DNA from: an uncultured Pseudomonadota bacterium
Lineage (GTDB): Bacteria > Pseudomonadota > Gammaproteobacteria > Burkholderiales > SG8-39
Assembly: GCA_903895005.1 (NCBI GenBank)
Contig: CAITSH010000193.1
Coordinates: 1 to 11,513 of the forward strand
Length of the DNA: 11,513 bases
Direction of reading: 5' to 3'
Shown: positions 1 to 11,513 of the stretch, piece after piece
Position numbering within the stretch: the stretch's first letter is position 1
Layout: each line of letters begins with the position of its first letter
The notes under the pieces: generated by a model
Told to the model about the DNA's origin: nothing
What the model saw: only the letters and a program-made list of their open reading frames with translations
Databases searched by the model: none
Position numbers and translations under genes: made by a program

Positions 1-219
1 GAATATCTCGAACTGCTCGCGCTTGCCCAGGAACAGGCTGGCAAGGGTCCAGTAAAAGTCGTCGCGCCTCGTGATGCCGGTCGCTTCCAGTGCCCGCAGC
101 GCGTCGATCACGCGGTCGGGACCGACCGGGATGCCCGCGGCCCGCAGCACGCGGGCGAAATGCATGACGTTGTCGCCCAGATGGCCGGCGTCCGCCTGCT
201 CCCGGATCGCCGCGCTCAT
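1..219 (-). CDS. CoxE-type VWA-domain protein, N-terminal part (runs off the window)
   Basis: Only the first 73 residues are present; the frame is open to base 1. The N-terminus contains the segments NVMHFARVLRAAGIPVGP and DFYWTLASLFLGKREQFEIF, which I recognise as the opening of the CoxE-like von Willebrand factor A family. The VWA metal-binding domain itself would lie outside the window. CoxE-type proteins work with a MoxR/CoxD-type AAA+ ATPase in maturing the molybdenum-copper or molybdenum centre of CO-dehydrogenase-like hydroxylases (family knowledge). Here that ATPase lies one gene upstream in the same direction, supporting the assignment. The ATG at 219-217 overlaps the TGA of the malonyl-CoA decarboxylase gene (218-216) as ATGA, so the two are probably translationally coupled. 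Confidence 0.82.
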   Translation of the reverse strand, partial: MSAAIREQADAGHLGDNVMHFARVLRAAGIPVGPDRVIDALRALEATGITRRDDFYWTLASLFLGKREQFEIF

Positions 220-1562
220 TTGCGTTTTGGCGACGTGCCTGACACCGGCGCGTCCTTGGCCAGCGACTCGAGCCGTGATGAGGCGATGACCTTGTGGTCC
301 TTGACGTAGGCTTCGTGATTGGCTTCGACGTCGCCCAGCTTGTAGACGTAATTCACCATAAGCCCCGCTGAGCGGACCATGCCCGCCTCGGAAACATCGC
401 CGAGCCAGTTGATGCGATCCAGGCGCGCGCCATTGGACAGGTGAAAGCGCGCCACCGGGTCGAGCGGTTCCTCGCCGTGCTTGGCGCGCAGCAGGTAGTG
501 TGCACAAAGCTGGGTGAGGGGCTGCTGCAGCACCGCACTGATGCCCTTGTCCTCGTTCCATTGCGGATTGTCGAGATGCTCGAGGAGCAATGCGATCTGC
601 CGCGCCTGCGCTTCGCTGGCGAGCTTGGCTGCCTCGACCGCAAGCCATTTGCGAAAACCCGGTATCGGGGAGAGTGTCGCGAAGGTCTTCAGGCGCGGGA
701 ACTCGCGTCCGAGGTCATCGGCCACCTGCTTGATCAGAAAATTGCCGAAGGAGATGCCGCGCAGGCCCTCCTGGCAGTTGGTGATCGAATAAAAAATCGC
801 GCAGTCGGCGCGTGCCGCGTCCGAGATCGCCGAGGCCGGGTCGAGCAGGGGCTGCACCTTGGTACTCATGCCGTGGGTCAGCGCCACTTCGATGAAGATC
901 ACCGGTTCGTCTGGCAGCGCAGGGTGAAAGAAGGCATAGCATCGGCGGTCCGCCTGCAGGCGCCGGCGCAGGTCATCCCAGCCCTGGATCTGGTGCACGG
1001 CCTCGTACTGGATGAGTTTTTCCAGCACGATGGCAGAGGTGCGCCAGTCGATGCGCTGCAGGCTCAGGAAGCCGCGGTTGAACCAGGATGAAAGCAAATG
1101 CCCGAGGTCAGCCTCGCTACCCGCCCATTGCGGATGCTTTTTCAGCCCCATCAACAGGCGCCTGCGCATCTGCACCAGTGTGCCGGTGCCGCCGGGGGCC
1201 ATGTTGAGACGGCGGAACAATTCCTGGCGCGGGGCCTCGACCACCTTTTGCAGTCGGATCAGGTTTTGTTGCGACGGATCTTTCTGGTAGGCGTCCGCTG
1301 CGCGCGACACGATCTTGGGGTCGGGAGAGAATTCCTCCCCCAGCAGGTCGAAAAACGCCTCCAGGCTGGCACCTTCGAGTGCCTGGTAGTCGGCGAGCGC
1401 CTCGCGCGCGAGCGACGCACCGGAGGCTTCCCCGCGCTCCGAGAGCAGTGCGTGGCAGCGTGCGATGACCAGCTTGGTACGGCGCGCCTCGGCGGCGGAA
1501 AGCGGGTTGTCAGCCTGCGTGACGGAACTGAGCAGGCGCTTCAGGAAATTGGGTTTGTCCAC
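216..1562 (-). CDS. Malonyl-CoA decarboxylase
   Basis: Cytosolic enzyme that decarboxylates malonyl-CoA to acetyl-CoA and CO2. The 448-residue product matches the usual bacterial length. Its N-terminal half is helical (about residues 1-200) and the C-terminal half is a GNAT-like catalytic domain. Recognisable stretches are HPALPDEPVIFIEVALTHG (213-231), FYSITNCQEGLRGISFGNF (257-275) and LDRINWLGD (381-389). By family alignment from memory, Ser259, His374 and Tyr405 correspond to the active-site Ser, His and Tyr. I chose the GTG at 1562-1560: it lies 34 nt after the stop of the MoxR gene, with AAGGA about 10 nt upstream. The frame stays open to 1673, but that extension overlaps the MoxR gene and its residues look like shadow coding. 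The stop overlaps the start of the CoxE-type gene. Its position between two Cox maturation genes is unusual. The family call is secure; its role in this operon is not. Confidence 0.93.
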   Translation of the reverse strand: MDKPNFLKRLLSSVTQADNPLSAAEARRTKLVIARCHALLSERGEASGASLAREALADYQALEGASLEAFFDLLGEEFSPDPKIVSRAADAYQKDPSQQNLIRLQKVVEAPRQELFRRLNMAPGGTGTLVQMRRRLLMGLKKHPQWAGSEADLGHLLSSWFNRGFLSLQRIDWRTSAIVLEKLIQYEAVHQIQGWDDLRRRLQADRRCYAFFHPALPDEPVIFIEVALTHGMSTKVQPLLDPASAISDAARADCAIFYSITNCQEGLRGISFGNFLIKQVADDLGREFPRLKTFATLSPIPGFRKWLAVEAAKLASEAQARQIALLLEHLDNPQWNEDKGISAVLQQPLTQLCAHYLLRAKHGEEPLDPVARFHLSNGARLDRINWLGDVSEAGMVRSAGLMVNYVYKLGDVEANHEAYVKDHKVIASSRLESLAKDAPVSGTSPKRK

Positions 1563-1596
1563 GGAACCGCGGTCCTTGCGCTGTGTTGTTCCCGGA

Positions 1597-2511
1597 TCAG
1601 GAAGCCGCGAGTTCGGCTTTGACTTCGGCCAGCAGTCGCCCCGCCTCGCTGCCCTGGATACGGCCGATGTCATCCTGGTACTTGAGCAGCGCGCCGAGGG
1701 TGTCGTTGACTGTCGCCGGGTCCAGGGTCATTCGATCGAGTGCGACAAGGGCTTTGGACCAATCTATGGTTTCGGCCACACCGGGCAGCTTGAACAAGTC
1801 CATCTTGCGCAGGCGTTGGACGAACTCGACCACTTCGCGCGACAGGCGCTCGGATGCGCCCGGTGCCTTGCGCCGCAGGATGTCCAGTTCGCGCGCCGCA
1901 TCAGGGTAGTCGACCCAGTGATAAAGGCAGCGACGTTTTACGGCGTCGTGAATCTCGCGCGTGCGGTTGGAGGTGAGAATGACGATGGGCGGCTTTTTCG
2001 CGGCGATGGTGCCGATTTCGGGCACCGTCACCTGGAAGTCCGACAGGATTTCCAGCAGGTAGGCTTCGAAGGGCTCGTCGGTGCGGTCCAGTTCGTCGAT
2101 GAGCAACACCGGCGGAAGCCCCTTTGCCTCAAGGGCGCGCAGCAGCGGCCGGCGGATGAGAAATTTTTCCGAGAAGACGTCGGCGCCCAGCTTGTCCTTT
2201 GATTTTTCGCCCGCCGCTTCGGCGAGGCGGATCTCGATCATCTGGCGCGAGTAGTTCCATTCGTACACGGCGCTCGCGACATCGAGCCCCTCGTAGCATT
2301 GCAGGCGTATCAGTTCGCGGCCCAGCGACTTGGCCAGCACTTTGGCGATTTCGGTCTTGCCCACGCCGGCCTCGCCTTCGAGCATGAGCGGGCGCTCCAT
2401 CTTGAGAGCAAGGAACACCGAGGTCGCAAGGCTGCGCTCGGCAACGTAATCGGCGCCGCTCAGAAGGGCGAGGGTGTCGTCGACGGATTTGGGGAGGGAA
2501 GGGGTAGCCAT
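1597..2511 (-). CDS. MoxR/CoxD-type AAA+ ATPase
   Basis: A 304-residue AAA+ ATPase of the MoxR branch. Visible motifs are Walker A GEAGVGKT (46-53), Walker B VLLIDELD (135-142), sensor-1 region VILTSNRTREI (177-187) and arginines R193/R194 at the expected arginine-finger position. MoxR/CoxD ATPases act as metal-centre or chaperone-type maturases with a VWA partner; in CO-dehydrogenase clusters the pair is CoxD and CoxE (established). A CoxE-type gene follows one gene later, and CoxS/CoxM-type subunits lie upstream on the same strand. The frame extends upstream to 2652 but would run into the Bug receptor gene. The ATG at 2511 begins MATPSLPKSVDDTLALL, typical for the family. No Shine-Dalgarno sequence is visible before it; instead a CATAAT hexamer sits 6 nt upstream (see promoter entry). 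Confidence 0.92.
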   Translation of the reverse strand: MATPSLPKSVDDTLALLSGADYVAERSLATSVFLALKMERPLMLEGEAGVGKTEIAKVLAKSLGRELIRLQCYEGLDVASAVYEWNYSRQMIEIRLAEAAGEKSKDKLGADVFSEKFLIRRPLLRALEAKGLPPVLLIDELDRTDEPFEAYLLEILSDFQVTVPEIGTIAAKKPPIVILTSNRTREIHDAVKRRCLYHWVDYPDAARELDILRRKAPGASERLSREVVEFVQRLRKMDLFKLPGVAETIDWSKALVALDRMTLDPATVNDTLGALLKYQDDIGRIQGSEAGRLLAEVKAELAAS

Positions 2512-2517
2512 GGCGGA

Positions 2518-2546
2518 ATTATGCCAGCAAGCGCCCTCACCCTGAA
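2518..2546 (-). promoter_or_regulatory. Possible promoter just upstream of the MoxR-type gene
   Basis: On the minus strand TTCAGG (2546-2541) and CATAAT (2523-2518) are separated by 17 nt, with only 6 nt between the -10 hexamer and the ATG at 2511. If used, transcription would begin at or within a base or two of the ATG, giving a leaderless message. This fits the lack of a ribosome binding site. A perfect palindrome GCGCGATCGCGC (2547-2558) adjoins the -35 element. The -35 match is modest and the call is inference. Confidence 0.35.
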
Positions 2547-2584
2547 GCGCGATCGCGCGGTAGCGCGGATTCTGTGCGCGATGG

Positions 2585-2601
2585 ACTCGCTTTCGGCGAG
2601 T
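2585..2601 (-). other. Small hairpin after the second Bug gene
   Basis: ACTCGC (2585-2590) and GCGAGT (2596-2601) form a perfect 6-bp stem around a 5-nt loop, starting 5 nt beyond the Bug receptor stop. No U-run follows on the minus strand, so it is not a classical terminator. It may protect the 3' end of the upstream message or mark a boundary before the MoxR gene. Confidence 0.35.
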
Positions 2602-2605
2602 GCTC

Positions 2606-3592
2606 TCAGAGTTTGATGCCGGTGGCATCGACCACTGGACGCCATTTTTCAATTTCGGTACGGATGAAGGCCGTGGCGGCCGCGGGGCCCGAGTCGGTAT
2701 TGGGCTCGATGGCCATTGCGGCCAGTTGCTGGTGCAGGGAGGTATCGCTCATCACCTTCGCGGTGGCGGTGGCGAGCGCGGCGGTGACCGCTGGAGGCAG
2801 GCCCGCGGGCGCGGCGACGACATTCCACAGCGTTGCATCAAACCCCTGGGTGCCGAGGGCCTCGTCCACGGTGGGCACATCGGGCGCCAGCGCCGAGCGT
2901 TTGGCCGCGGCGACGGCGACAATTCTGATCTTGCCTGCCTTGTGGTTGGGCAGCAGCGAACCCAACGTGTCAACGGTCATTCCGACCTGGCCACCGAGCA
3001 GTGCCGGCATCGCCTGCGCACTGCCGCGAAATGGAATGTGCTGGATGTCGGCGTTGCCTCCCTCGCGCTTGAGGCGTTCGGCGGCAAGATGCAGGTAGGT
3101 GCCCTCACCCGGAGAACCGTATTGCAGCTTGCCCGGCGTGGCGCGAGCTGCCTCCATCAATGACTTGAGGGTTTGCGGCGCCCCCGGCCCGACCCCGAAT
3201 GCCGCCGGTGCGCCGCCGACGATGGCGATATGCGTGAAGTCGCGAAGCGAATCATATTGCGGCTGTTTTGTAATCAGGTTGTACAAGCCGTGGGTTGAGG
3301 CGGTGCCGAACAACAACACGTGGCCGTCTGCCTCGGCGTTCTTGACCTCGAGCGAACCGCTGGCGCCGCTGGCGCCGCTTTTGTTCTCGACAATGACCGG
3401 TTTGCCGAGGATTGCCGAAAGCCGGTTCGCATACTGGCGCGCGAATACATCGGTCGGGCCTCCTGGCGGAAAGGGCACGATCAGGCGTATGGGCTTGGAC
3501 GGATAGGCGGTCTGTGCGCGCGCGCCCGCGGTCAAGGCCAGCGCCGGTAGGGCGGCGAACAGAGCCAGTTTGAGCAGATGGCGGCGACGCAT
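2606..3592 (-). CDS. Bug/TctC-family periplasmic solute-binding receptor (copy 2)
   Basis: A 328-residue extracytoplasmic binding protein of the Bug/TctC family, the receptor part of tripartite tricarboxylate transporters. The signal peptide covers about residues 1-26 and ends ARA before QTAYP. It contains RRHLLK (residues 3-8), close to the twin-arginine pattern RRxFLK, so Tat export is possible. Family signatures follow: YPSKPIRLIVPFPPGGPTD in the mature N-terminus, then PVIVENKSGASG, and later LAPDVPTVDEAL. Ligands of this family are usually carboxylates; the specific one cannot be told. No TctA or TctB membrane subunit lies in the window. The gene begins 15 nt after the GlcG-like gene stop, so they are probably co-transcribed. 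The ribosome binding site is weak (AGAAAGA). Confidence 0.93.
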   Translation of the reverse strand: MRRRHLLKLALFAALPALALTAGARAQTAYPSKPIRLIVPFPPGGPTDVFARQYANRLSAILGKPVIVENKSGASGASGSLEVKNAEADGHVLLFGTASTHGLYNLITKQPQYDSLRDFTHIAIVGGAPAAFGVGPGAPQTLKSLMEAARATPGKLQYGSPGEGTYLHLAAERLKREGGNADIQHIPFRGSAQAMPALLGGQVGMTVDTLGSLLPNHKAGKIRIVAVAAAKRSALAPDVPTVDEALGTQGFDATLWNVVAAPAGLPPAVTAALATATAKVMSDTSLHQQLAAMAIEPNTDSGPAAATAFIRTEIEKWRPVVDATGIKL

Positions 3593-3607
3593 GGCGTGGT
3601 CTTTCTG

Positions 3608-4096
3608 TCAGAGGCCCGCGTCGCGCCAGGCCGGGTTGGGTGTGGCCGGTTCGGTTTCGCAGCCGGCTGCATGAACGGCTTCAATGGCACAGTACTCGTC
3701 CTTGTCCGAGGCGTCGCCACTGATGCCGATGGCGCCGACAGCCGTGCCCTGCGCATCAAGGATCAGTACGCCGCCGGGCGTCGGAATAAAGCGCCCGCCG
3801 GAGGCGGCCGCCAGTGCGCTCTGGAAGGCCGGGCGTTGTGCCAATCGGTCGCGTATCAGGCGCGAGGACATGCCCATGCCCAGCGCGCCATGCGCCTTGC
3901 CAAAGGCGATGTCAAAGCGCATGACACCGCAACCGTCTTCGCGCTTGAACGCGACAAGTTGTGCTCCGGCGTCGAGCACTGCGACAGCCAGCGGCAAAAG
4001 GCGTTCACGACGGCGGATTGCGATGGCTGCGTCGACGATGGCGGCGGCACGCTCCAGCGTCATGCTCGAGTGGATGTTTTTCAGTTGTTCAGGCAC
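3608..4096 (-). CDS. GlcG/HbpS-like (DUF336) protein
   Basis: A 162-residue protein of the GlcG/HbpS family. Recognisable family stretches are TLERAAAIVDAAIAIRR near the N-terminus, PLAVAVLDAGAQLVAFKRED (about 35-54), ASGGRFIPTPGGVLIL in the second half and VGAIGISGDASDKDEYCA near the C-terminus. Members are called haem-binding or GlcG-like and often sit next to catabolic oxidoreductases, but the biochemical role of most is unknown. I see no signal peptide. The start is uncertain: GTG at 4096 gives MPEQLKN and lacks a clear ribosome binding site; the ATG at 4063 (MTLERAAA) would also preserve the domain. It follows the MBL-fold gene by 37 nt and precedes the Bug gene by 15 nt, so it looks like an operon member. 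Confidence 0.85.
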   Translation of the reverse strand: MPEQLKNIHSSMTLERAAAIVDAAIAIRRRERLLPLAVAVLDAGAQLVAFKREDGCGVMRFDIAFGKAHGALGMGMSSRLIRDRLAQRPAFQSALAAASGGRFIPTPGGVLILDAQGTAVGAIGISGDASDKDEYCAIEAVHAAGCETEPATPNPAWRDAGL

Positions 4097-4133
4097 GGGG
4101 GGCTCGAGGAGAATCAGCAGGGCCGGCGGGGTG

Positions 4134-5108
4134 TCATTTTGTCGGCAGTTGTACCACGCGATCGGCGTCGATGCGAAAGGCCATCAGGTCTTCGCCGATC
4201 AGAAGCGGGCCGGCGTAGGTTTTTCGCGTCATGGTCAGCACTTCCTCCTCGGTCACCGCCGGCACCTTGGGTGTTCCCAGCAGAACGAAATGGTAGTACA
4301 CCGCGAGCCTGGGTTTGGTGCGCGAAAATACCGTGCCCGCTTCCTCGGGTTTGGTGTGGTGATCGAGTATCACCTTGAACACCGGCGAATCCATCAACTC
4401 GGCGCGCACGGCGGCAACCTGGTGGATCAGCAAGTCGGTGCCGGTGGCGTGGTGGATCAGGTTTTCACTGAAGCGGGTATCGCCCGAAATCGTTACCGAG
4501 CGCCCGGCGAAATCGACGCGAAAGCCGAAGGCCGGTTTGAGCAGTTCGCCATGATCTACCTCGAAGGCGGTGACCGTGACGCCGCTCTTGCTGTAAATGA
4601 CGCCCTGCCTGATTTCGCTTACCTCCGGCCGGACGTTGGCGGGGTCGAGTTTCTGGTCGGCAATGCGCGCCTTGATATCCCAGTCGTAGGCCTTGACCAG
4701 CCCGTCCATGAGATTTTGAGACCCTGCAGGACCAAAGACGCGAAACGGCCCGTTGCGCTGGGCATAGCCCGCTTCTAGCCAGCCGGTCAGCCACAGGTCC
4801 GGAATGCCGACGACATGGTCAGAGTGAAGGTGTGTGATGAACAGCGCATCGACCGCACCCAGTTTTAGTCCCACCTGCAGCAGGCGTTGTGTGACGCCGC
4901 GCCCCGAGTCGATAAGCAGGTTCTGGCCTCCTGCCTGCACGAGCACGCCCGGGCCAAAGCGGCGCATGGCGGGCATGGGGCTGCCGGTACCGAGCAGCGT
5001 AACGCGAAATTCATCTTTGGCGGCCGGCGCAGGCTGGCTTGCGGCGCCTGCACTGAAAAAGGCGAAGGCCAGGGTGAGCGCTGAAGCAAGAGCACGGATC
5101 CTTGTCAT
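4134..5108 (-). CDS. Exported metallo-beta-lactamase-fold hydrolase (RNase Z/arylsulfatase-like)
   Basis: A 324-residue protein with an N-terminal signal peptide (about residues 1-24, MTRIRALASALTLAFAFFSA, ending near GAA-SQ). A metallo-beta-lactamase domain follows. The metal motif HLHSDH is at 93-98; other probable ligands are His186 (VDHGE), Asp210 (ISGDTRF) and His273 (YYHF), the order seen in RNase Z/ElaC-like members. LLGTGSPMPAMRRFGPG (38-54) is the typical opening strand and turn of that subgroup. Because it is exported it is unlikely to be a tRNA-processing enzyme; a periplasmic ester, lactone or sulfate-ester hydrolase is more likely (inference). The ATG at 5108 is chosen because GGGAGG lies 8 nt upstream; the frame is open further, but that extension overlaps the FAH-family gene. 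Confidence 0.9.
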   Translation of the reverse strand: MTRIRALASALTLAFAFFSAGAASQPAPAAKDEFRVTLLGTGSPMPAMRRFGPGVLVQAGGQNLLIDSGRGVTQRLLQVGLKLGAVDALFITHLHSDHVVGIPDLWLTGWLEAGYAQRNGPFRVFGPAGSQNLMDGLVKAYDWDIKARIADQKLDPANVRPEVSEIRQGVIYSKSGVTVTAFEVDHGELLKPAFGFRVDFAGRSVTISGDTRFSENLIHHATGTDLLIHQVAAVRAELMDSPVFKVILDHHTKPEEAGTVFSRTKPRLAVYYHFVLLGTPKVPAVTEEEVLTMTRKTYAGPLLIGEDLMAFRIDADRVVQLPTK

Positions 5109-5125
5109 GCAGAAAGCCTCCCGTG

Positions 5126-5154
5126 GCGCCGCCGGATATGACTCCGGCAGGCGC
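5126..5154 (-). other. Stable hairpin just upstream of the MBL-fold gene's ribosome binding site
   Basis: GCGCC-GCCGGA (5126-5136) pairs with TCCGGC-a-GGCGC (5143-5154): an 11-bp GC-rich stem with one bulged A and a 6-nt loop. It lies between the FAH-family stop (5173) and the GGGAGG ribosome binding site (5122-5117) of the MBL gene. There is no U-tract, so an mRNA-processing, stability or translation-control element is more likely than a terminator. Confidence 0.45.
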
Positions 5155-5172
5155 GTCGTTCTGGTGATAGTC

Positions 5173-6045
5173 CTAGGTTTCGTCTGCGATGGTGTTGGAC
5201 AGGATGCCCACACCTTCGATGTCGATCTCGCAAACGTCATCAGGCGCCATCCAGACCGGCGGTGTGCGTGCGTAACCAACGCCGGCGGGGGTACCCGTGA
5301 TGATCACATCGCCCGGCTCGAGCGTAATGCATTCGGTGATGATGCAAAGCGACTCGACCACGTCAAACAGGAAGTCCGAGGTATTGGCATCCTGCATGAT
5401 TTTGCCGTTGAGGCGCGACTGGATGCGCAGGCCCACGGCGCCGGCAGGCAGTTCGTCCGGTGTCACCAGCCAGGGACCGAAGCCCCCGGTCTTGTCAAAA
5501 TTCTTGCCCAGGGTCCACTGCGTGCCGCGGCGCTGGAAGTCACGAATGGAGCCGTCGTTGTAGCACGAATAACCGGCGACGCAATCGAGTGCGTCGGCCT
5601 TGGTCAGGTGACGCGCATGCTTGCCGATGATAACCGCGAGTTCGGCCTCGTAATCGAGCTTGCTCGAGGCCTTGGGCCGGATGATGGCTTGCTGGTGGGC
5701 CACCTGTGAAACCGCGCCGCGCATGAAAAAGCTCGGAAACTCTGGCTTGGCATGGCCGCCTTCCTTGGCGTGATCGGCGTAGTTGAGGCCGAGACAGATG
5801 ATCTTGGGTGGGCGCGGCACCAGCGGCAGGTAGCGAATGCCGGCGAGCGGCTTGACGGCGCTTGCCGGTGCCTTTTCGGCGGCGGCCTTGGCCGCTGCAA
5901 GCCCGTCAGGCATGGCCAGCAATGCGGTCATGTCCGAGGGCAGGTTGGGGGCGGCGGCGCCAAGGTCGACGAAGTCGGTGGCAGCGGCCGATTTGACCAC
6001 GCCGATGGCGGCGCAGCCGTTGATGTCGTAACTGATAAGTCGCAT
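5173..6045 (-). CDS. Fumarylacetoacetate hydrolase (FAH) family protein
   Basis: A 290-residue cytosolic enzyme of the FAH superfamily, which acts on C-C bonds of beta-diketo acids or isomerises, hydrates or decarboxylates 2-hydroxydienoates in aromatic meta-cleavage and related routes. A short N-terminal domain precedes the catalytic domain. Family motifs are ICLGLNYADHAKE (83-95), DYEAELAVIIGK (131-142) with probable metal ligands Glu133 and Glu135, and YNDGSIRDFQ (162-171) with probable ligand Asp164. GDVIITGTPAGVGYARTPP near the C-terminus is also typical. Upstream, GGA lies 7 nt before the ATG. It starts 48 nt after the Bug receptor and probably belongs to the same operon. The substrate cannot be deduced; acylpyruvate, 2-oxo-hept-3-ene-dioate or ureidoglycolate-type reactions all occur in the family. 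Confidence 0.93.
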   Translation of the reverse strand: MRLISYDINGCAAIGVVKSAAATDFVDLGAAAPNLPSDMTALLAMPDGLAAAKAAAEKAPASAVKPLAGIRYLPLVPRPPKIICLGLNYADHAKEGGHAKPEFPSFFMRGAVSQVAHQQAIIRPKASSKLDYEAELAVIIGKHARHLTKADALDCVAGYSCYNDGSIRDFQRRGTQWTLGKNFDKTGGFGPWLVTPDELPAGAVGLRIQSRLNGKIMQDANTSDFLFDVVESLCIITECITLEPGDVIITGTPAGVGYARTPPVWMAPDDVCEIDIEGVGILSNTIADET

Positions 6046-6093
6046 GTCAGATTCCGTATTAGTGTGAAAAATTTCCAGCTTTGGCTGTGATGT

Positions 6094-7071
6094 CTATTCG
6101 ACCTTGGCACCCGAACTCTTGACCACGCCGGCCCATTTGGGCACTTCTTCCTTGAGGAATGCGCCGAACTCGGCCGAGGTGTAATGCACGATCTCAAGGC
6201 CGTTCTGGGCGAAGCGCTCTTTTACGTCCGGCGCATCCATTGCCTTGTTGATGTCGGCATTAAATCGCTCAACGATTGCGGCGGGGGTGCCCACCGGCAG
6301 GAAAAAGCCGATCCATGTGTAGTCGTCAAAATCCTTGTAGCCGAATTCGCCCACCGTGGGTACGTCGGGCAGCAGCGCCGAACGCTTGGAACTTGTGACA
6401 GCGATGGCGCGCAGCTTGCCCGATTTGATTTGCGGCACTGCCGGGGGCATCGACGTCGAGGCCATCGGGGTCTGGTTGCCGACGACGGCGGTGATCGCCG
6501 CAGCGGGCTGGTAGGGAACGTGGGTGATGTCGACCTTGGCCGCGGTTTTAAGGCGCTCGATCGAAAGGTGGGTGGTCGTGCCTATGCCTGAAGAGGCGTA
6601 GGCGAGCGGCTGCTTGCGCGCCAGTTCGACGAGTTCCTTGAGGTCTTTGGCCGGCGTCGCCGGGTTGACCGTGATGATGTTGGGGGTGCGCCCGCCAAGC
6701 GACAGGGGAATGAAATCCTTGATCGCATCGTATCCGGCGTTTGGATAGAGCGATGGATTGACGGCGTAGGCGACGCTGTGCGCGAGCACGGTGTAGCCGT
6801 CAGGGGCGGCGCGTTTGACCTGCACCGTGGCGATGTTGCCGCCCGCCCCCGGCTTGTTTTCGACGACGAAGTTCGAGCCGTTCATCTCCACCAGTTTTTG
6901 CGCGACGATACGGGAAACGATGTCGGTGGTGCTGCCCGGCGCAAAGCCGACGATGATGCTCACCGGTTTGGCTTTGGGCCATTCGGCCTGTGCGAACGCG
7001 CTGGCGCTCGCGAGCATGCCGAGGGCGGCGATGGCCGCGGCGGCGGCGCGCGTGGAAAGGCGGGAATTCAT
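6094..7071 (-). CDS. Bug/TctC-family periplasmic solute-binding receptor (copy 1)
   Basis: A 325-residue extracytoplasmic receptor of the Bug/TctC family. The Sec-type signal peptide ends AFA (25-27) before QAEWP. Mature-protein signatures are WPKAKPVSIIVGFAPGSTTD, FVVENKPGAGGNIA, YASSGIGTTTHLSIERLK and LLPDVPTVGEFGY. It differs widely from the second Bug gene of the window, so the two are old paralogues rather than a recent duplication and may bind different ligands. AAGGAG sits 8 nt before the ATG, the clearest ribosome binding site on this strand. It is the first gene after the 7307-7333 terminator and a putative promoter/operator, so it probably heads an operon running through the FAH, MBL, GlcG-like and second Bug genes. 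No TctAB genes are present here. Confidence 0.93.
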   Translation of the reverse strand: MNSRLSTRAAAAAIAALGMLASASAFAQAEWPKAKPVSIIVGFAPGSTTDIVSRIVAQKLVEMNGSNFVVENKPGAGGNIATVQVKRAAPDGYTVLAHSVAYAVNPSLYPNAGYDAIKDFIPLSLGGRTPNIITVNPATPAKDLKELVELARKQPLAYASSGIGTTTHLSIERLKTAAKVDITHVPYQPAAAITAVVGNQTPMASTSMPPAVPQIKSGKLRAIAVTSSKRSALLPDVPTVGEFGYKDFDDYTWIGFFLPVGTPAAIVERFNADINKAMDAPDVKERFAQNGLEIVHYTSAEFGAFLKEEVPKWAGVVKSSGAKVE

Positions 7072-7086
7072 GTTTGATCTCCTTGG

Positions 7087-7102
7087 ATGTACGTTATGTA
7101 CG
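7087..7102. repeat. Direct repeat ATGTACG in the leader of Bug copy 1
   Basis: ATGTACG occurs at 7087-7093 and again at 7096-7102, separated by TT (9-bp period), between the putative promoter and the ribosome binding site of the Bug gene. It could be a protein-binding site in the leader, or chance. Confidence 0.3.
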
Positions 7103-7184
7103 GGGTGTGCGGCGCATCCGGATTCTCGGTTGTTCGTTCGGTCGAGCCGACCGCCCGAATATCCGTGTATGTCCGTTTCTTTTT

Positions 7185-7211
7185 TTTATATTGCGATGCC
7201 ACAAGCATCAA
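7185..7211 (-). promoter_or_regulatory. Putative promoter of the Bug-FAH-MBL operon
   Basis: On the minus strand TTGATG (7211-7206) and TATAAA (7190-7185) are separated by 15 nt, slightly short for sigma-70; the -10 element runs into an A-tract. The surroundings are strikingly AT-rich compared with the genes. The resulting leader would be about 100 nt. The promoter lies directly downstream of the terminator that ends the coxS-coxM unit, which is where a new operon start is expected. Confidence 0.45.
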
Positions 7212-7228
7212 TATTATCGATGATATTG
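7209..7228. promoter_or_regulatory. Near-perfect 20-bp AT-rich palindrome (operator candidate)
   Basis: The 20 bases CAATAT-tATCGATg-ATATTG match their own reverse complement at all but one symmetric pair. The site overlaps the putative -35 hexamer (7206-7211) of the Bug-operon promoter, where a repressor would block RNA polymerase. A smaller inverted repeat GATGC-N5-GCATC (7195-7209) abuts it. Size and AT content suit a MarR-, TetR- or GntR-type dimer (inference). No regulator gene lies in the window. Confidence 0.5.
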
Positions 7229-7306
7229 CACTATCAGCGCGTTTGTCGATTCCGGAACCGGATCGGGCGATCTGCCCGCGTTGAGTTACCGGTCCACAAA
7301 TAAAGA

Positions 7307-7333
7307 CCCCGCTTCCGGGAACCGGAAGCGGGG
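7307..7333 (-). terminator. Intrinsic terminator of the coxS-coxM transcript
   Basis: CCCCGCTTCCGG (7307-7318) and CCGGAAGCGGGG (7322-7333) form a perfect 12-bp stem with a 3-nt loop. On the minus strand it is followed by TCTTTATTT (7306-7298), a T-rich run. It lies 64 nt beyond the CoxM stop codon. This is the only convincing intrinsic terminator seen in the window. Confidence 0.8.
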
Positions 7334-7369
7334 CGGCAGGGCGGGGCGTTGTATCGCTCCGGCCCCTAT

Positions 7370-7388
7370 CCCCTCCCGTGAGGAGGGG
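7370..7388. repeat. Inverted repeat CCCCTCC-N5-GGAGGGG beside the terminator
   Basis: A 7-bp perfect stem with loop CGTGA lies 9 nt beyond the CoxM stop. Together with the nearby GGCCCCTATCCCCTCCC it resembles the dispersed CCCTCTCC/GGAGAGGG-type intergenic repeats common in proteobacteria. Whether it is one cannot be decided without other genome copies. Confidence 0.4.
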
Positions 7389-7397
7389 AAACGTGTT

Positions 7398-8195
7398 TTA
7401 TTTCAGCGCTGCCTCGACGCCGCGTTTGGCCATCACCGTAATGAGGTGCGCGCGGTAGTCGGCTTTGGCATGCATGTCGGAGTTGAGGTTGTGCTCGGGT
7501 ACCTTGATGCCAGCCACCGATTCGGGGGCGAATTTCGCGGCCAGGGCTTTTTCCATTTCAGGCACGCGGAACACACCTGCTGCGGCACCGGTCACCGCGA
7601 CACGCACGCTCGATCCGAAGTCTGCGATGAACACGCCGACGATGGCGTAACGCGAGGCTGGATTCTTGAATTTCATGTAAGACGCGCGCTTGGGTACGGG
7701 GAAGGACACCGCGGTGATGATCTCGCCCTGATGCAGGGCGGTTTCGTACATGCCCTTGAAGAATTCATCGGCGGAAATCTTGCGCTTGTCGGTGATGACC
7801 GTGGCGCCGAGGGCGACCAAGCCTGCCGGATAATCGGCCGCCGGGTCGTTGTTGGCAACCGAGCCGCCGATGGTACCCATGTTGCGCACCATGCGGTCGC
7901 CGATGCCGCCGGCAAGCGAGGCGAGCGCGGGAATGGCTTTTTTTACCTCGGGCGAGGCGGCCACCTGGGCGTGGCGCGTCATCGCGCCGATGGTGACGGT
8001 ATTGCCTTCCACCTTGATGCCGGCGAGGTCCTTGATCAGGCCGAGGTCGACAATGTCCGATGGGTTCGCGAGGCGCAGTTTCATCGCGGCAATCAGGCTC
8101 TGCCCGCCGGCGAGGAGCTTGGCGTCGGCGTTCTTGCCGAGCACACCGGCGGCGTCGGCTACGGATTTGGCTTTCTGGTACGCAAACGAATACAT
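7398..8195 (-). CDS. CoxM-type FAD-binding subunit of a molybdenum hydroxylase
   Basis: A 265-residue FAD-binding medium subunit of the xanthine dehydrogenase/CO dehydrogenase family; it passes electrons from the Fe-S subunit to the external acceptor. The two FAD-pyrophosphate motifs are visible: LLAGGQSL (27-34) and GTIGGSVANNDPAADYPA (107-124). A typical C-terminal CO_deh_flav_C-like region follows (VTGAAAGVFRVPEMEKALA). Length is slightly short of the usual 280-290 but no motif is missing. GGAGA lies 6 nt before the ATG. It follows the CoxS-type gene by 34 nt and ends before an intrinsic terminator, so coxS-coxM is a two-gene unit here. Substrate cannot be inferred without the large subunit; CO dehydrogenase, aldehyde or N-heterocycle hydroxylase are all possible. 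Confidence 0.93.
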   Translation of the reverse strand: MYSFAYQKAKSVADAAGVLGKNADAKLLAGGQSLIAAMKLRLANPSDIVDLGLIKDLAGIKVEGNTVTIGAMTRHAQVAASPEVKKAIPALASLAGGIGDRMVRNMGTIGGSVANNDPAADYPAGLVALGATVITDKRKISADEFFKGMYETALHQGEIITAVSFPVPKRASYMKFKNPASRYAIVGVFIADFGSSVRVAVTGAAAGVFRVPEMEKALAAKFAPESVAGIKVPEHNLNSDMHAKADYRAHLITVMAKRGVEAALK

Positions 8196-8229
8196 GTTGT
8201 CTCCGGTTTTACTCTGTTTACTCAGGGGC

Positions 8230-8703
<474 letters not shown>

Positions 8704-8729
8704 GGGGAGTTTCTCCTGAATTGCCTAAG

Positions 8730-8776
8730 TGTTCTGGTTGTTCTGGTTTTGCAGCTGCGGGGTGTTCCGCGTGTTC
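8730..8776. repeat. Four TGTTC half-sites in two 9-bp-spaced pairs
   Basis: TGTTC starts at 8730, 8739, 8763 and 8772, so two pairs with 9-bp spacing lie 33 bp apart, about three helical turns. They fall in the leader of the coxS-type gene. The regular phasing suggests cooperative protein binding, but low-complexity drift cannot be excluded. Confidence 0.35.
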
Positions 8777-8852
8777 CGGGAGTTTGGCTTTTCTGACCGG
8801 GAATGACCGTAACCGGCGTCTGTCCCGTGAAGCCGGAAAAGCGATGGTTTCA

Positions 8853-8862
8853 CGCCTAGGCG
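8853..8862. promoter_or_regulatory. Palindrome CGCCTAGGCG near the coxS start site
   Basis: A perfect 10-bp palindrome immediately downstream of the putative -10 element of the coxS promoter. An outer inverted repeat CGTGAA (8826-8831) / TTCACG (8849-8854) borders it. Operator candidate. Confidence 0.3.
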
Positions 8863-8863
8863 A

Positions 8864-8892
8864 ATCCTAGCCCACGCATGGCCCATAAGCAA
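8864..8892 (-). promoter_or_regulatory. Putative sigma-70 promoter of coxS-coxM
   Basis: On the minus strand TTGCTT (8892-8887) and TAGGAT (8869-8864) are separated by exactly 17 nt. The expected start site is near 8857, leaving a leader of about 150 nt before the coxS-type ATG. An inverted repeat CACCGG-N9-CCGGTG (8901-8921) lies just upstream of the -35 element, the position expected for an activator. Confidence 0.5.
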
Positions 8893-8900
8893 ATTCTGCG

Positions 8901-8921
8901 CACCGGATTGATTACCCGGTG
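8901..8921. promoter_or_regulatory. Inverted repeat CACCGG-N9-CCGGTG upstream of the coxS promoter
   Basis: A perfect 6-bp inverted repeat with an AT-rich centre (ATTGATTAC). It begins 9 nt upstream of the putative coxS -35 hexamer, and a palindrome CGTCGCGACG (8926-8935) follows. Such spacing fits an activator such as a LysR-type regulator, but no regulator gene is present to pair with it. Confidence 0.35.
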
Positions 8922-8975
8922 GGGTCGTCGCGACGGGACTTTCGATCTGATTTCAAAGCAGATTTGCCACTGGAT

Positions 8976-9001
8976 GCGGCCCGCCCGCCGGGGCGGGCCG
9001 C
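8976..9001. other. GC-rich 11-bp hairpin between the divergent promoters
   Basis: GCGGCCCGCCC (8976-8986) pairs perfectly with GGGCGGGCCGC (8991-9001) around a 4-nt loop. Neither side has a T-run, and it sits directly upstream of the putative xdhC -35 element. It may be a REP-like repeat, a bidirectional insulator or a weak terminator against read-through. Confidence 0.5.
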
Positions 9002-9066: not shown

Positions 9067-10080
9067 GTGGATAGCGTCGATCTGGAAGTAATACGCAGTG
9101 CCATCGCCTGGACCGGTGCGGGCCACCGCACCACCATCGGTACGGTTACCCATACTTGGGGCTCCGCGCCGCGGCCGGTCGGCGCGATGCTTGCGATCCG
9201 TGACGATGGCCATGTCAAGGGTTCGGTCTCTGGCGGTTGTGTCGAGGATGACCTCATCGACAAGGTCAAGGCCAATGCGCTTGGCGTGACGCGCCCTTCG
9301 GTGGTGACCTATGGCGTCACCCAGGAGCAGGCCAACCGCTTCGGCCTGCCCTGCGGCGGCACACTTCAACTGGTGCTTGAGCCGGTCGGGCCGCAGTCGC
9401 GGCTGCAGGAATTGCTCGGCATCATCGAACGCCACGAACTGGTCGCGCGCCACCTCGACATGGATACCGGCGAGGTGCGCCTCGAACCGGGCAAGTGGTC
9501 CGACTACCTTGAGTTTGACGGCAAGGTGCTCAAGTCTGTGCACGGCCCAAGCTGGCGCCTGCTGATCATCGGCGCCGGGCAGCTGTCGGGTTTTCTGGCG
9601 CAAATGGCGCAGGCGCTTGATTACCATGTGGTGGTGTGCGACCCGCGCGAGGAGTACGCCGAGGAGTGGAATGTCGCCGGCGTGCCGCTCAATCGCGGCT
9701 ATCCCGACGACGTGGTGCTGGAATTGAACCTTGACGCACACAGCGCCGTGGTGGCGGTGACGCACGATCCCAAGCTCGATGACATCGCGCTGATCGAGGC
9801 GCTCAAGTCGCCGGCGTTCTATGTCGGGGCGCTTGGCTCCAAGAAGAACAACGATGCGCGGCGCAGCCGTCTCACCGACTTCGACTTGTCGGCCGGCGAG
9901 ATAGCCCGGCTGCACGGTCCTGTCGGCCTCAAGATCGGCAGCAAGACGCCGCCGGAAATCGCGGTGGCCATCCTGGCTGAAATGACGGCGGTGCGCCACG
10001 GCGTCAAAATTCCCGAGACCATCGAGCCGGCCAAGCACAACGTAAGCGCCGGCTGCGCCGTGCCTTCGGCGGGGCGCTAA
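9067..10080 (+). CDS. XdhC/CoxF-family molybdenum-enzyme maturation factor
   Basis: A 337-residue protein of the XdhC/CoxI/CoxF family. XdhC proteins bind the molybdenum cofactor, promote its sulfuration and insert it into the apo-hydroxylase (established for the family). The N-terminal XdhC/CoxI domain contains RPVGAMLAIRDDG (36-48), GSVSGGCVE (52-60) and LPCGG (94-98) with the conserved cysteines Cys58 and Cys96. A Rossmann-like C-terminal domain starts at LLIIGAGQLSGF (165-176) and contains VTHDPKLDD (231-239), YVGALGSKK (252-260) and KTPPEIAVAILAEM (293-306). The start is GTG at 9067, 6 nt after GAGG. It is divergent from coxS-coxM and begins a plus-strand unit with the Rieske gene 130 nt downstream. 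Its presence makes a functional molybdenum hydroxylase likely even though the large subunit is elsewhere. Confidence 0.93.
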   Translation: MDSVDLEVIRSAIAWTGAGHRTTIGTVTHTWGSAPRPVGAMLAIRDDGHVKGSVSGGCVEDDLIDKVKANALGVTRPSVVTYGVTQEQANRFGLPCGGTLQLVLEPVGPQSRLQELLGIIERHELVARHLDMDTGEVRLEPGKWSDYLEFDGKVLKSVHGPSWRLLIIGAGQLSGFLAQMAQALDYHVVVCDPREEYAEEWNVAGVPLNRGYPDDVVLELNLDAHSAVVAVTHDPKLDDIALIEALKSPAFYVGALGSKKNNDARRSRLTDFDLSAGEIARLHGPVGLKIGSKTPPEIAVAILAEMTAVRHGVKIPETIEPAKHNVSAGCAVPSAGR

Positions 10081-10210
10081 CACCGTCATCGGCTGGAAAC
10101 GCCCGCCTGGCGCGGCTTTCCGGGCAGTGCCGGCGCGTATCGCGATGGTGGCGGGCAGTTGAATGGGCCTAGACCCGTTTGTCCCGATCAAAGAACAGGA
10201 GGTGTCATCG

Positions 10211-11266
10211 ATGTTTCCCCAGGACTACTGGTACGTGTTGTGCGAGGCGACCGAGCTTGCGGACAAGCTGTTCGCGCGCACGATCCTGAACATGCCGCTG
10301 GTCGCCTATCGTGCGCCCTCGGGCGAGGTTGTCGTCCTTGAAGATTTTTGCCCGCACCGCGGCCTGCCGCTGTCAAAGGGATCACTGGAGCCGGAAGGCG
10401 TGCGCTGCGGTTATCACGGCATGCTGGTCGGCCACAACGGCCGCTGCCATTCGATGCCCGGCCAGCCGCATATCGACAGACTGCGCGGTGTGAAGAGGTT
10501 TGCAGCGATTGAAAAATTCGGGTTTGTCTGGGTCTGGCACGGCGATGCCGAGCGCGCCGATACGGCCAAGTTGCCGGCCCTGCCCTGGGGCGAGGGCACG
10601 GCCTGGACTTACGGTGGCGGCGTCTTCGAAGTCGGTTGCAACTACCAGTTCCTCATCGACAACCTGATGGACCTGACGCACGAAACCTACGTGCACCCCA
10701 CCAGCCTCGGACAAAAGGAAATCGACCATGCCAAGCCCGAGCTCATTCTCAAGGGCGACGATGTGTTTCTTACGCGCTGGATGACCAACGTCAAGCCGGC
10801 GCCCTTCTGGGCGGTGATGATCAACACCGAAAAAAACTGCGACCGCTGGCAGATCTGCCATTTCGCGCCGCCCTCGAATGTTTTCATTGACGTCGGTGTG
10901 GCCATTACCGGGACCGGCGCGCCGCAGGGGGACCGCTCGCAGGGCATCACCGGTCTGGTAATCAACCTGATGACGCCGGCAACTGAGACCACGTCCTGGC
11001 ATTTCTGGGGCATGGCGCGAAACTTCAGGATCGATGATCCTGCGGTGACCGAGCAGATCAGGAAAAATCAGGGTGCCGTCGTCCTTGAGGATAATGTTGT
11101 ACTCGCGGCCCAGCAGCAAAGCGTGCTGCGTAACCCCGAGCGGCGCCTGGTCAACCTCGATATCGACCGCGGCGGTTCGAATGCGCGCAAGATCATAGAG
11201 CGCATTTGCAGCCAGCAGGTTGCCGAGGAACGGCTGGGTTCGGGGCAGGCCGGGGCGGCATCGTAA
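10211..11266 (+). CDS. VanA-like Rieske non-haem iron oxygenase, alpha subunit
   Basis: A 351-residue terminal oxygenase of the vanillate O-demethylase/dicamba monooxygenase-like class, which uses O2 for O-demethylation or hydroxylation of aromatic or related acids. The Rieske [2Fe-2S] cluster is bound by Cys47-x-His49 (FCPHRG) and Cys66-x2-His69 (RCGYHGM). The mononuclear iron site is NLMDLTHETYVH (151-162) with His157 and His162; Asp294 in LEDNVVLAAQQQS is the likely third ligand. The ATG at 10211 is preferred over one at 10163 because AGGAGG (10197-10202) lies 8 nt upstream and FPQDYWYVLCEA is the usual start of the family. No reductase partner (VanB type) is in the window. Substrate is unknown; resemblance to VanA is by class, not proof of vanillate use. 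Confidence 0.92.
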   Translation: MFPQDYWYVLCEATELADKLFARTILNMPLVAYRAPSGEVVVLEDFCPHRGLPLSKGSLEPEGVRCGYHGMLVGHNGRCHSMPGQPHIDRLRGVKRFAAIEKFGFVWVWHGDAERADTAKLPALPWGEGTAWTYGGGVFEVGCNYQFLIDNLMDLTHETYVHPTSLGQKEIDHAKPELILKGDDVFLTRWMTNVKPAPFWAVMINTEKNCDRWQICHFAPPSNVFIDVGVAITGTGAPQGDRSQGITGLVINLMTPATETTSWHFWGMARNFRIDDPAVTEQIRKNQGAVVLEDNVVLAAQQQSVLRNPERRLVNLDIDRGGSNARKIIERICSQQVAEERLGSGQAGAAS

Positions 11267-11316
11267 CTGCGGTCGGCGTGTGCGCTGAATCCGAACGAAA
11301 AGATTAAGACTCGACG

Positions 11317-11394
11317 ATGATTACCGGAATACTTCTAGCAGCAGGATCAGCGTCTCGTTTTAGTTGCGGCGTCACGCCCGCTTCGCGTGCATGA
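11317..11394 (+). pseudogene. Unit 1: truncated MocA/MobA-like gene start, 25-codon ORF
   Basis: ATG at 11317 opens a frame MITGILLAAGSASRF followed by SCGVTPASRA and TGA (11392-11394). GILLAAGxSxRF is the N-terminal nucleotide-binding signature of MobA/MocA-like nucleotidyltransferases, where a Gly normally follows the Phe. MocA makes molybdopterin cytosine dinucleotide, the cofactor of bacterial Cox-type hydroxylases, matching the neighbouring genes. No strong ribosome binding site is visible. It could be a broken 5' fragment, a leader peptide, or one cassette of an array that ends in an intact gene beyond the window. Confidence 0.6.
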
Positions 11395-11414
11395 GCCTTC
11401 ACTGAAACTCGACG

Positions 11415-11492
11415 ATGATTACTGGAATACTTCTCGCGGCAGGGTCAGCGTCTCGTTTTAGTTGCGGCGTCACGCCCGCTTCGCGTGCATGA
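11415..11492 (+). pseudogene. Unit 2: second copy of the truncated MocA/MobA-like gene start
   Basis: It encodes exactly the same 25 residues as unit 1, with different codons at Thr3 (ACT), Leu7 (CTC), Ala8 (GCG) and Gly10 (GGG). It begins 20 nt after the TGA of unit 1 and ends in TGA at 11490-11492. The next ATG would start at 11513, the last base of the window. The intact gene, if there is one, must start at that or a later unit. Confidence 0.6.
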
Positions 11493-11513
11493 GCCTTCAC
11501 TGAAACTCGACGA

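Follow-up and report, generated by a model that had tools for sequence, protein, structure and literature searches.

The right-hand end of the window (the whole 11,513-nt stretch of DNA analyzed here) carries a tandem array that we read, with a probability of roughly 0.68, as two or more gene-less mobile cassettes of about 100 bp, which would be moved in trans and would restore the genes they enter. Each cassette would consist of a hairpin, here called H, plus an end piece of the target gene that finishes in TTTT. The reading draws on several lines of sequence comparison: recurrence of the same anatomy in unrelated genes and in a tRNA; the presence of H in many Burkholderiales genomes and its near-absence from a class-wide sample; repetition of the target far above controls, with nearly all repeats ending in TTT; covariation in the arms of H; a third-position bias between gene pieces; an empty murG site in a related genome; complementarity downstream of H; and the number of tandem H pairs.

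Features of the array and its immediate neighbors are listed in Table 1. The first-pass annotation of this DNA had described a 98-bp tandem array of two full units and the start of a third, in which the start of a mocA-like gene is fused to a constant tail of about 50 bp foreign to that gene. The 98-bp period is recovered by Tandem Repeats Finder and both full units stand; the third is present as nine bases, short of a complete ATG. Each unit comprises eight bases, the ATG-led 15 codons of the mocA-like start and about 45 bp of non-gene sequence. Units 1 and 2 differ at four positions, all of them codon third positions of MITGILLAAGSASRF, and their hairpin parts are identical. The gene-like stretch stops after codon 15 in each copy, at CGT TTT/AG, and the opening five bases of the first hairpin, GTTTT, double as the end of the mocA-like piece. 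The tail is indeed foreign to the gene, with the correction that it is a conserved, structured hairpin of a widespread family; in the window its foot pairs and the following two positions are unpaired.

Table 1. Features of the array at the contig end and of the neighboring genes (window coordinates).
Feature	Position	Strand	Evidence or remark
XdhC/CoxI-type maturation gene, neighbor	9067..10080	+	PF02625, PF13478; NF045664 below cut-off
Rieske / VanA_C oxygenase gene, neighbor	10163..11266	+	PF00355, PF19112
Tandem array	11309-11513	+	Tandem Repeats Finder: period 98, 2.1 copies, 96% matches; reaches contig end
Unit 1	11309-11406
Left (first) mocA-like start, 15 codons MITGILLAAGSASRF, stranded by hairpin 1	11317..11361	+	by comparison with the uninterrupted gene at L253
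Hairpin H, copy 1	11357..11408	+	covariance model R1, 64.5 bits; the R1 training set includes one copy of the sequence
Unit 2	11407-11504
TCGACG after H copy 1	11409..11414	+	partial complementarity to the sequence preceding GTTTT
Second mocA-like start, 15 codons	11415..11459	+	4 third-position differences from the first
Hairpin H, copy 2	11455..11506	+	identical to copy 1
Third unit, first 9 bases	11505-11513	+	truncated by contig end, ATG incomplete

The mocA-like gene is uninterrupted at a locus of a distant relative (L253), where it encodes 196 aa from MITGILLAAGLSRRFG. That protein scores above the cut-off of PF12804 (MobA-like NTP transferase), and its best NCBIfam match is TIGR03310 (MocA), below the model cut-off. 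XdhC/CoxI-type genes are usual partners of mocA-like genes, and the neighborhood in the window fits mocA. The upstream gene of the window lacks a close relative among 200 sampled genomes, in which the best match reaches 66% over 650 bp. Positions 1-9000 hold, in one stretch on the minus strand, genes for malonyl-CoA decarboxylase, two TctC-type receptors, fumarylacetoacetate hydrolase and the small and FAD subunits of a molybdenum hydroxylase. An imperfect 18-bp tandem of 2.1 copies occupies positions 8012-8048, within the reading frame of the flavoprotein-subunit gene.

The tail occurs elsewhere, a point that the first-pass annotation had proposed to check. A search of GTDB contigs with a 21-base tail pattern returned two genomes. 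One, from an uncultured betaproteobacterium, has a single copy directly before glyA; the other, Methylophilales LSUCC0135, has two copies in tandem at a period of 59. A 20-mer allowed up to one mismatch found the reference genome G001 as the sole match among 369 genomes of the class. Twelve copies from looser searches were aligned with covariation into a covariance model, R1, which at E 0.001 matches 72 of 300 Burkholderiales genomes, with 1-16 matches in each; these are lower bounds, since 20 candidates per genome were scored. Across a class-wide sample R1 matches two of 140 genomes, namely G001 and a borderline case (L256 in G127, E 9.6e-4, about chance level). A position-matrix scan of the collected loci yielded 160 distinct hairpins; 19 loci added none, partly since the site had already been counted.

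H has the layout GTTTTAGTTCCGGC - variable top - GCCTTCACTGAAAC, with GTTTTAG and CTGAAAC as its ends. Standard pairs fill 1320 of the 1485 cells in 135 distinct arm pairs, as against at most 1239 in 1000 shuffles; double changes occur (such as A-T 83 and G-C 39; G-C 100 and A-T 32), and the foot pair covaries as well (G-C 55, A-T 15, C-G 8). The case for structure rests on this covariation: the 98-nt unit as a whole has no folding advantage over its shuffles (z 0.56), and individual hairpins folded as DNA give z from -0.5 to -3.4. No Rfam family covers H at E up to 5. Units are 59-214 bp long (median 121). Tandem pairs, with two H copies no more than 300 bp apart, number 22, the pair in the window included. 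Four loci (L008, L011, L015, L016) carry a variant with an additional small hairpin between CGGC and the following paired segment, 60-66 bp in total. Copies L075, L076, L077, L079 and L080 in G881 and L059 in G658 share flanks such as gcgttgcgcg upstream of H and ttcgtt(t/g)tcg downstream, as though a single copy had multiplied along with its flanking DNA. L099, L100 and L101 in G757 and L146 in G821 share ctcgctta.tc upstream and have a foot of TATG or TACG, not TTTT, and probably form another dispersed subfamily.

H lies mostly behind a run of T. The left foot of H is TTTT in 95 of 160 copies and has at least three T of four in 146. We tested whether the sequence that precedes H returns in the 260 bp that follow it (ungapped, score at least 13), one copy being dropped for too short a flank, and found it repeated in 51 of 159 copies; these represent 48 loci and are not independent, some being orthologous insertions in related hosts or array neighbors. 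All of the repeats except L108 end in TTT (50 of 51), 43 of them in TTTT. Of 1,098 TTTT sites picked at random from these loci, one showed such a repetition, and after permutation 3 of 472 comparisons reached score 14, versus 47 of 159 real ones. At score 10, 99 of the 159 copies have no target duplication, and a search for long copies with cargo found one far repeat, in the array locus L065. Of 100 unduplicated copies, nine (from eight loci) have a strong terminator-like stem between H and the next T run. H lies directly before such a stem, ending at the next T run, at L031, L045, L068, L060, L061, L026, L131 and L099; L131 has a second, unrelated stem to the left of H, as if one terminator had replaced another.

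The targets are diverse. Among the pieces tested, family models score above cut-off for the gene starts of hldD, rmlB, selD, ksgA, ruvC, murG and fabD and for the gene ends of acs, alaC, ftsW, serS and pheS; transketolase and a Dps-like gene score below the cut-offs. Four of 20 target proteins (L009, L022, L078, L085) have no family-model match at the limits used, and the sole match in the L042 frame is a NuoE gene beyond the target. By their sequence we take nuoD (MAEIRNYTMNF/GPQHP), sucD and a prepilin-peptidase-like gene to be targets too. At L149 the target is a tRNA-Ser, with an exact repeat of 67 bases, and glyA (L001, L010, L012) and tRNA-Leu (L030, L140) look alike by eye, though they fail to score in the ungapped test. 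The idea that the tail might always sit within starts of MobA/MocA-like genes is thus not borne out, given so many targets and so many copies without target duplication.

At loci where a gene start is duplicated, the left and right pieces have diverged as working genes would. Over 20 start-type loci, a class that includes the doubtful L107 with zero differences, 100 left/right differences fall 16, 9 and 75 at codon positions 1, 2 and 3 (p 4e-9 against 46% expected at third positions, our rough estimate). The 3'-end class (37, 20, 51) was excluded because automatic framing had misplaced several start-type loci (L009, L043, L084 and L136 among them) there. If selection had been lifted from one copy after a local duplication, third positions would hold a far smaller part of the differences. 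Replication slippage alone, proposed earlier as an alternative, explains neither this bias nor the common hairpin. The pair of starts at L009 is unequal in length and in residues, with the last 15 bases, up to GGTTTT, in common.

Uninterrupted versions of target genes occur in relatives, as had been suggested should be looked for. Besides the mocA-like gene of L253, the murG insertion of G757 is absent from the orthologous site of its relative G821: query segments 1-549 and 631-1199 of G757 overlap by 47 bp in G821, leaving a single piece and no H. In G900, whose similarity to G757 is lower, murG is also interrupted at this position, with a different spacer. Either clean loss in G821 or two strikes at the same site would account for this pattern. 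Comparison of native and foreign versions with murG relatives involved a short piece and distant relatives, and marks neither piece as the foreign one. The earlier proposal, in which a very small element breaks into the start of a gene and provides another, is supported by the empty murG site and by the same anatomy at many unrelated loci.

The same comparisons bear on the strongest competitor, in which H inserts alone, the event duplicates a long target (30-100 bp, in the manner of a target-site duplication) and the copies are later partly homogenized by recombination, with no foreign end involved. The left and right murG pieces of G900, identical at 50 of 51 bases, fit local duplication as well, and the pieces at L084, L106 and L149 are nearly or fully identical. 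Against this stand the third-position bias, which implies that both copies were under selection while diverging, the L009 starts, with their differences beyond the last bases, and the better match of the bases after H to the right piece than to the left. We regard insertion of H alone as unlikely, though the most serious of the rivals.

That last observation comes from 49 duplicated copies, where the bases following H show complementarity to the target sequence that runs up to TTTT. Unbroken runs of pairing average 3.45 with the right piece and 2.39 with the left, as against 0.69 and 0.66 after shuffling (maxima in 1000 shuffles 1.2 and 1.27), and pairing stays above half for about eight positions past H. 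Among 91 unduplicated copies the mean run is 1.05 versus 0.51. The stem of H thus extends into target-specific sequence, with the best fit to the cassette's own right piece; such complementarity may serve recognition or may be a by-product of how the cassette arose. It resembles both the unconserved complementary inner arms of attC sites (as described in parts of PMC12901181) and the guide pairing of IS200/IS605 elements (parts of PMC8266576).

From this anatomy and comparative pattern we infer a movement, a direction and a kind of enzyme. A cassette would enter a short T run near the end of a gene, severing the native end and leaving it stranded on the left; the cassette's own version, derived from a related gene elsewhere, would join the remainder of the gene in frame, and the host gene would go on working. 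A second cassette entering the same site would produce a tandem. The right piece would then be the incoming one, H and the right piece moving together, and a recombinase supplied in trans would act on the folded strand. Mobilization in trans, also proposed by the first-pass annotation on grounds of size, agrees with units of 59-214 bp, in which there is no room for a recombinase gene. The copies without duplication, the near-identity of the G900 pieces and the non-independence of the 51 repeats count against the mobile, gene-restoring reading. A bolder version, which we offer tentatively and would not bet on, makes H cassettes the smallest mobile elements known to restore genes, and self-addressed ones: through pairing of the bases after H to the target before TTTT, a cassette would locate the same gene in a new host, enter as a folded single strand through a host recombinase, perhaps an integron integrase acting on a type of site not yet recognized, and hand over its own version of the gene end.

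As to the enzyme, matches to the integron integrase model TIGR02249 (E 1e-40, with fragments counted) are found in 49 of 72 genomes with H and 72 of 228 without, an odds ratio of 4.6 (p 8.6e-8) that ignores kinship and completeness. IntI, the integron-type tyrosine recombinase, is on co-occurrence only the leading candidate rather than the answer. Counting against it, 23 of the 72 genomes with H have no integrase match, including the H-rich G001, G881, G757 and G703; H lacks attC core boxes; and H is absent from the 16 intI loci scanned, some of which carry ordinary attC-like sites, so integron arrays were rejected as its home. ORF clustering of the loci brought out no recognized recurring transposase beside H among the top 45 clusters, which are unannotated individually. 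A phage or plasmid origin was also considered and rejected: the window end is unmatched in plasmids, one H copy is unmatched in plasmids or phages, and four short exact patterns are unmatched in IMG/VR, searches that diverged copies could escape in the latter two cases.

An HUH (Y1) transposase of the IS200/IS605 or REP (RAYT) kind, moving the unit through a single-strand hairpin, is improbable. In its favor, elements of that class have a hairpin beside a short fixed target, insert next to a T run and use a pairing "guide" (as set out in parts of PMC8266576). However, Y1_Tnp occurs in 49 of 72 genomes with H and 131 of 228 without (p 0.13), and it is missing from the H-rich G001, G641, G862, G651, G703 and G732. 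We found no H at the 30 Y1 loci fetched from 36 genomes (some Y1 matches had no locus), hence no Y1 gene between two inverted copies; a lone, weak regular-expression match at L160 is unlike H. The foot of H, (N)TTTTAG, is also not the GTAG or GTGG foot of REP sequences. On this lack of association we rejected Y1/RAYT as the mover.

Comparison with described systems sharpens the picture. Integrative elements such as IMEVchUSA3 (dusA 5' end) and SXT (prfC) restore an interrupted gene end, and, as H would, they insert in the 5' end of a gene and supply a diverged N-terminus with a new start (parts of PMC8409611). They encode an integrase, on islands from 22 kb up (same parts of PMC8409611), whereas an H unit codes for nothing, an integrase of its own included, and the H family serves many different genes. 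Replacement of the displaced end would be common to both, judging from the anatomy and codon-position bias. Integron attC sites and cassettes likewise have paired outer arms, unconserved complementary inner arms and tandem units, and their GNT target is fitted by the GTTTT of H, which does not fit GWTMW (parts of PMC12901181, PMC2727003 and PMC4618277). The pairing runs after H are the counterpart of such inner arms; the ends of H, in contrast, are not the core boxes RYYYAAC / GTTRRRY, and an integron cassette carries a gene where an H cassette has none. REP/BIME sequences with their RAYT are short, dispersed, imperfect palindromes, gene-less and presumably moved in trans, like H (parts of PMC2817692 and PMC8266576), but H differs in its low copy number and in the duplicated gene end on its other side.

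H lacks a defining feature of each known kind that was tested, and on that basis the H cassette would be a new kind. Rickettsia palindromic elements and MITEs are, like H, very small mobile DNA that sometimes lies within genes; they are not known to bring a replacement gene end. Should IntI prove to move H cassettes, they would become a variant of integron cassettes. No such element is described in the titles and abstract openings of the papers listed in searches of openly available articles, and an earlier description may exist.

Two further explanations fare worse. If H and an upstream decoy start were a regulatory leader that tunes translation of the gene, the duplication being selected for that, the left starts, often intact and translatable into the hairpin, would make sense; but the sites of H also include the 3' ends of genes, a tRNA-Ser and positions next to terminators, in both orientations, none of which this or the expression-tuning array suggested earlier explains, and we consider it very improbable. 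An assembly artefact, to which the position of the array at the very end of a contig might point, is hardly credible given 21 further tandem H pairs elsewhere, including on a 3.6-Mb contig of G821 (L024) and a 4.2-Mb contig of G757 (L101), and abundant single insertions with the same anatomy.

If the mobile, gene-restoring reading is true, a layer of mobile DNA has escaped notice, since it has no coding content and the genes it enters stay functional. Units as small as about 100 bp would be able to settle in housekeeping genes such as murG, ftsW and serS, and in a tRNA gene, and to swap their ends for foreign ones. It would provide a testable substrate for a short, possibly base-pair-addressed integration system, and it would account for stranded gene starts and misannotated start codons in Burkholderiales.
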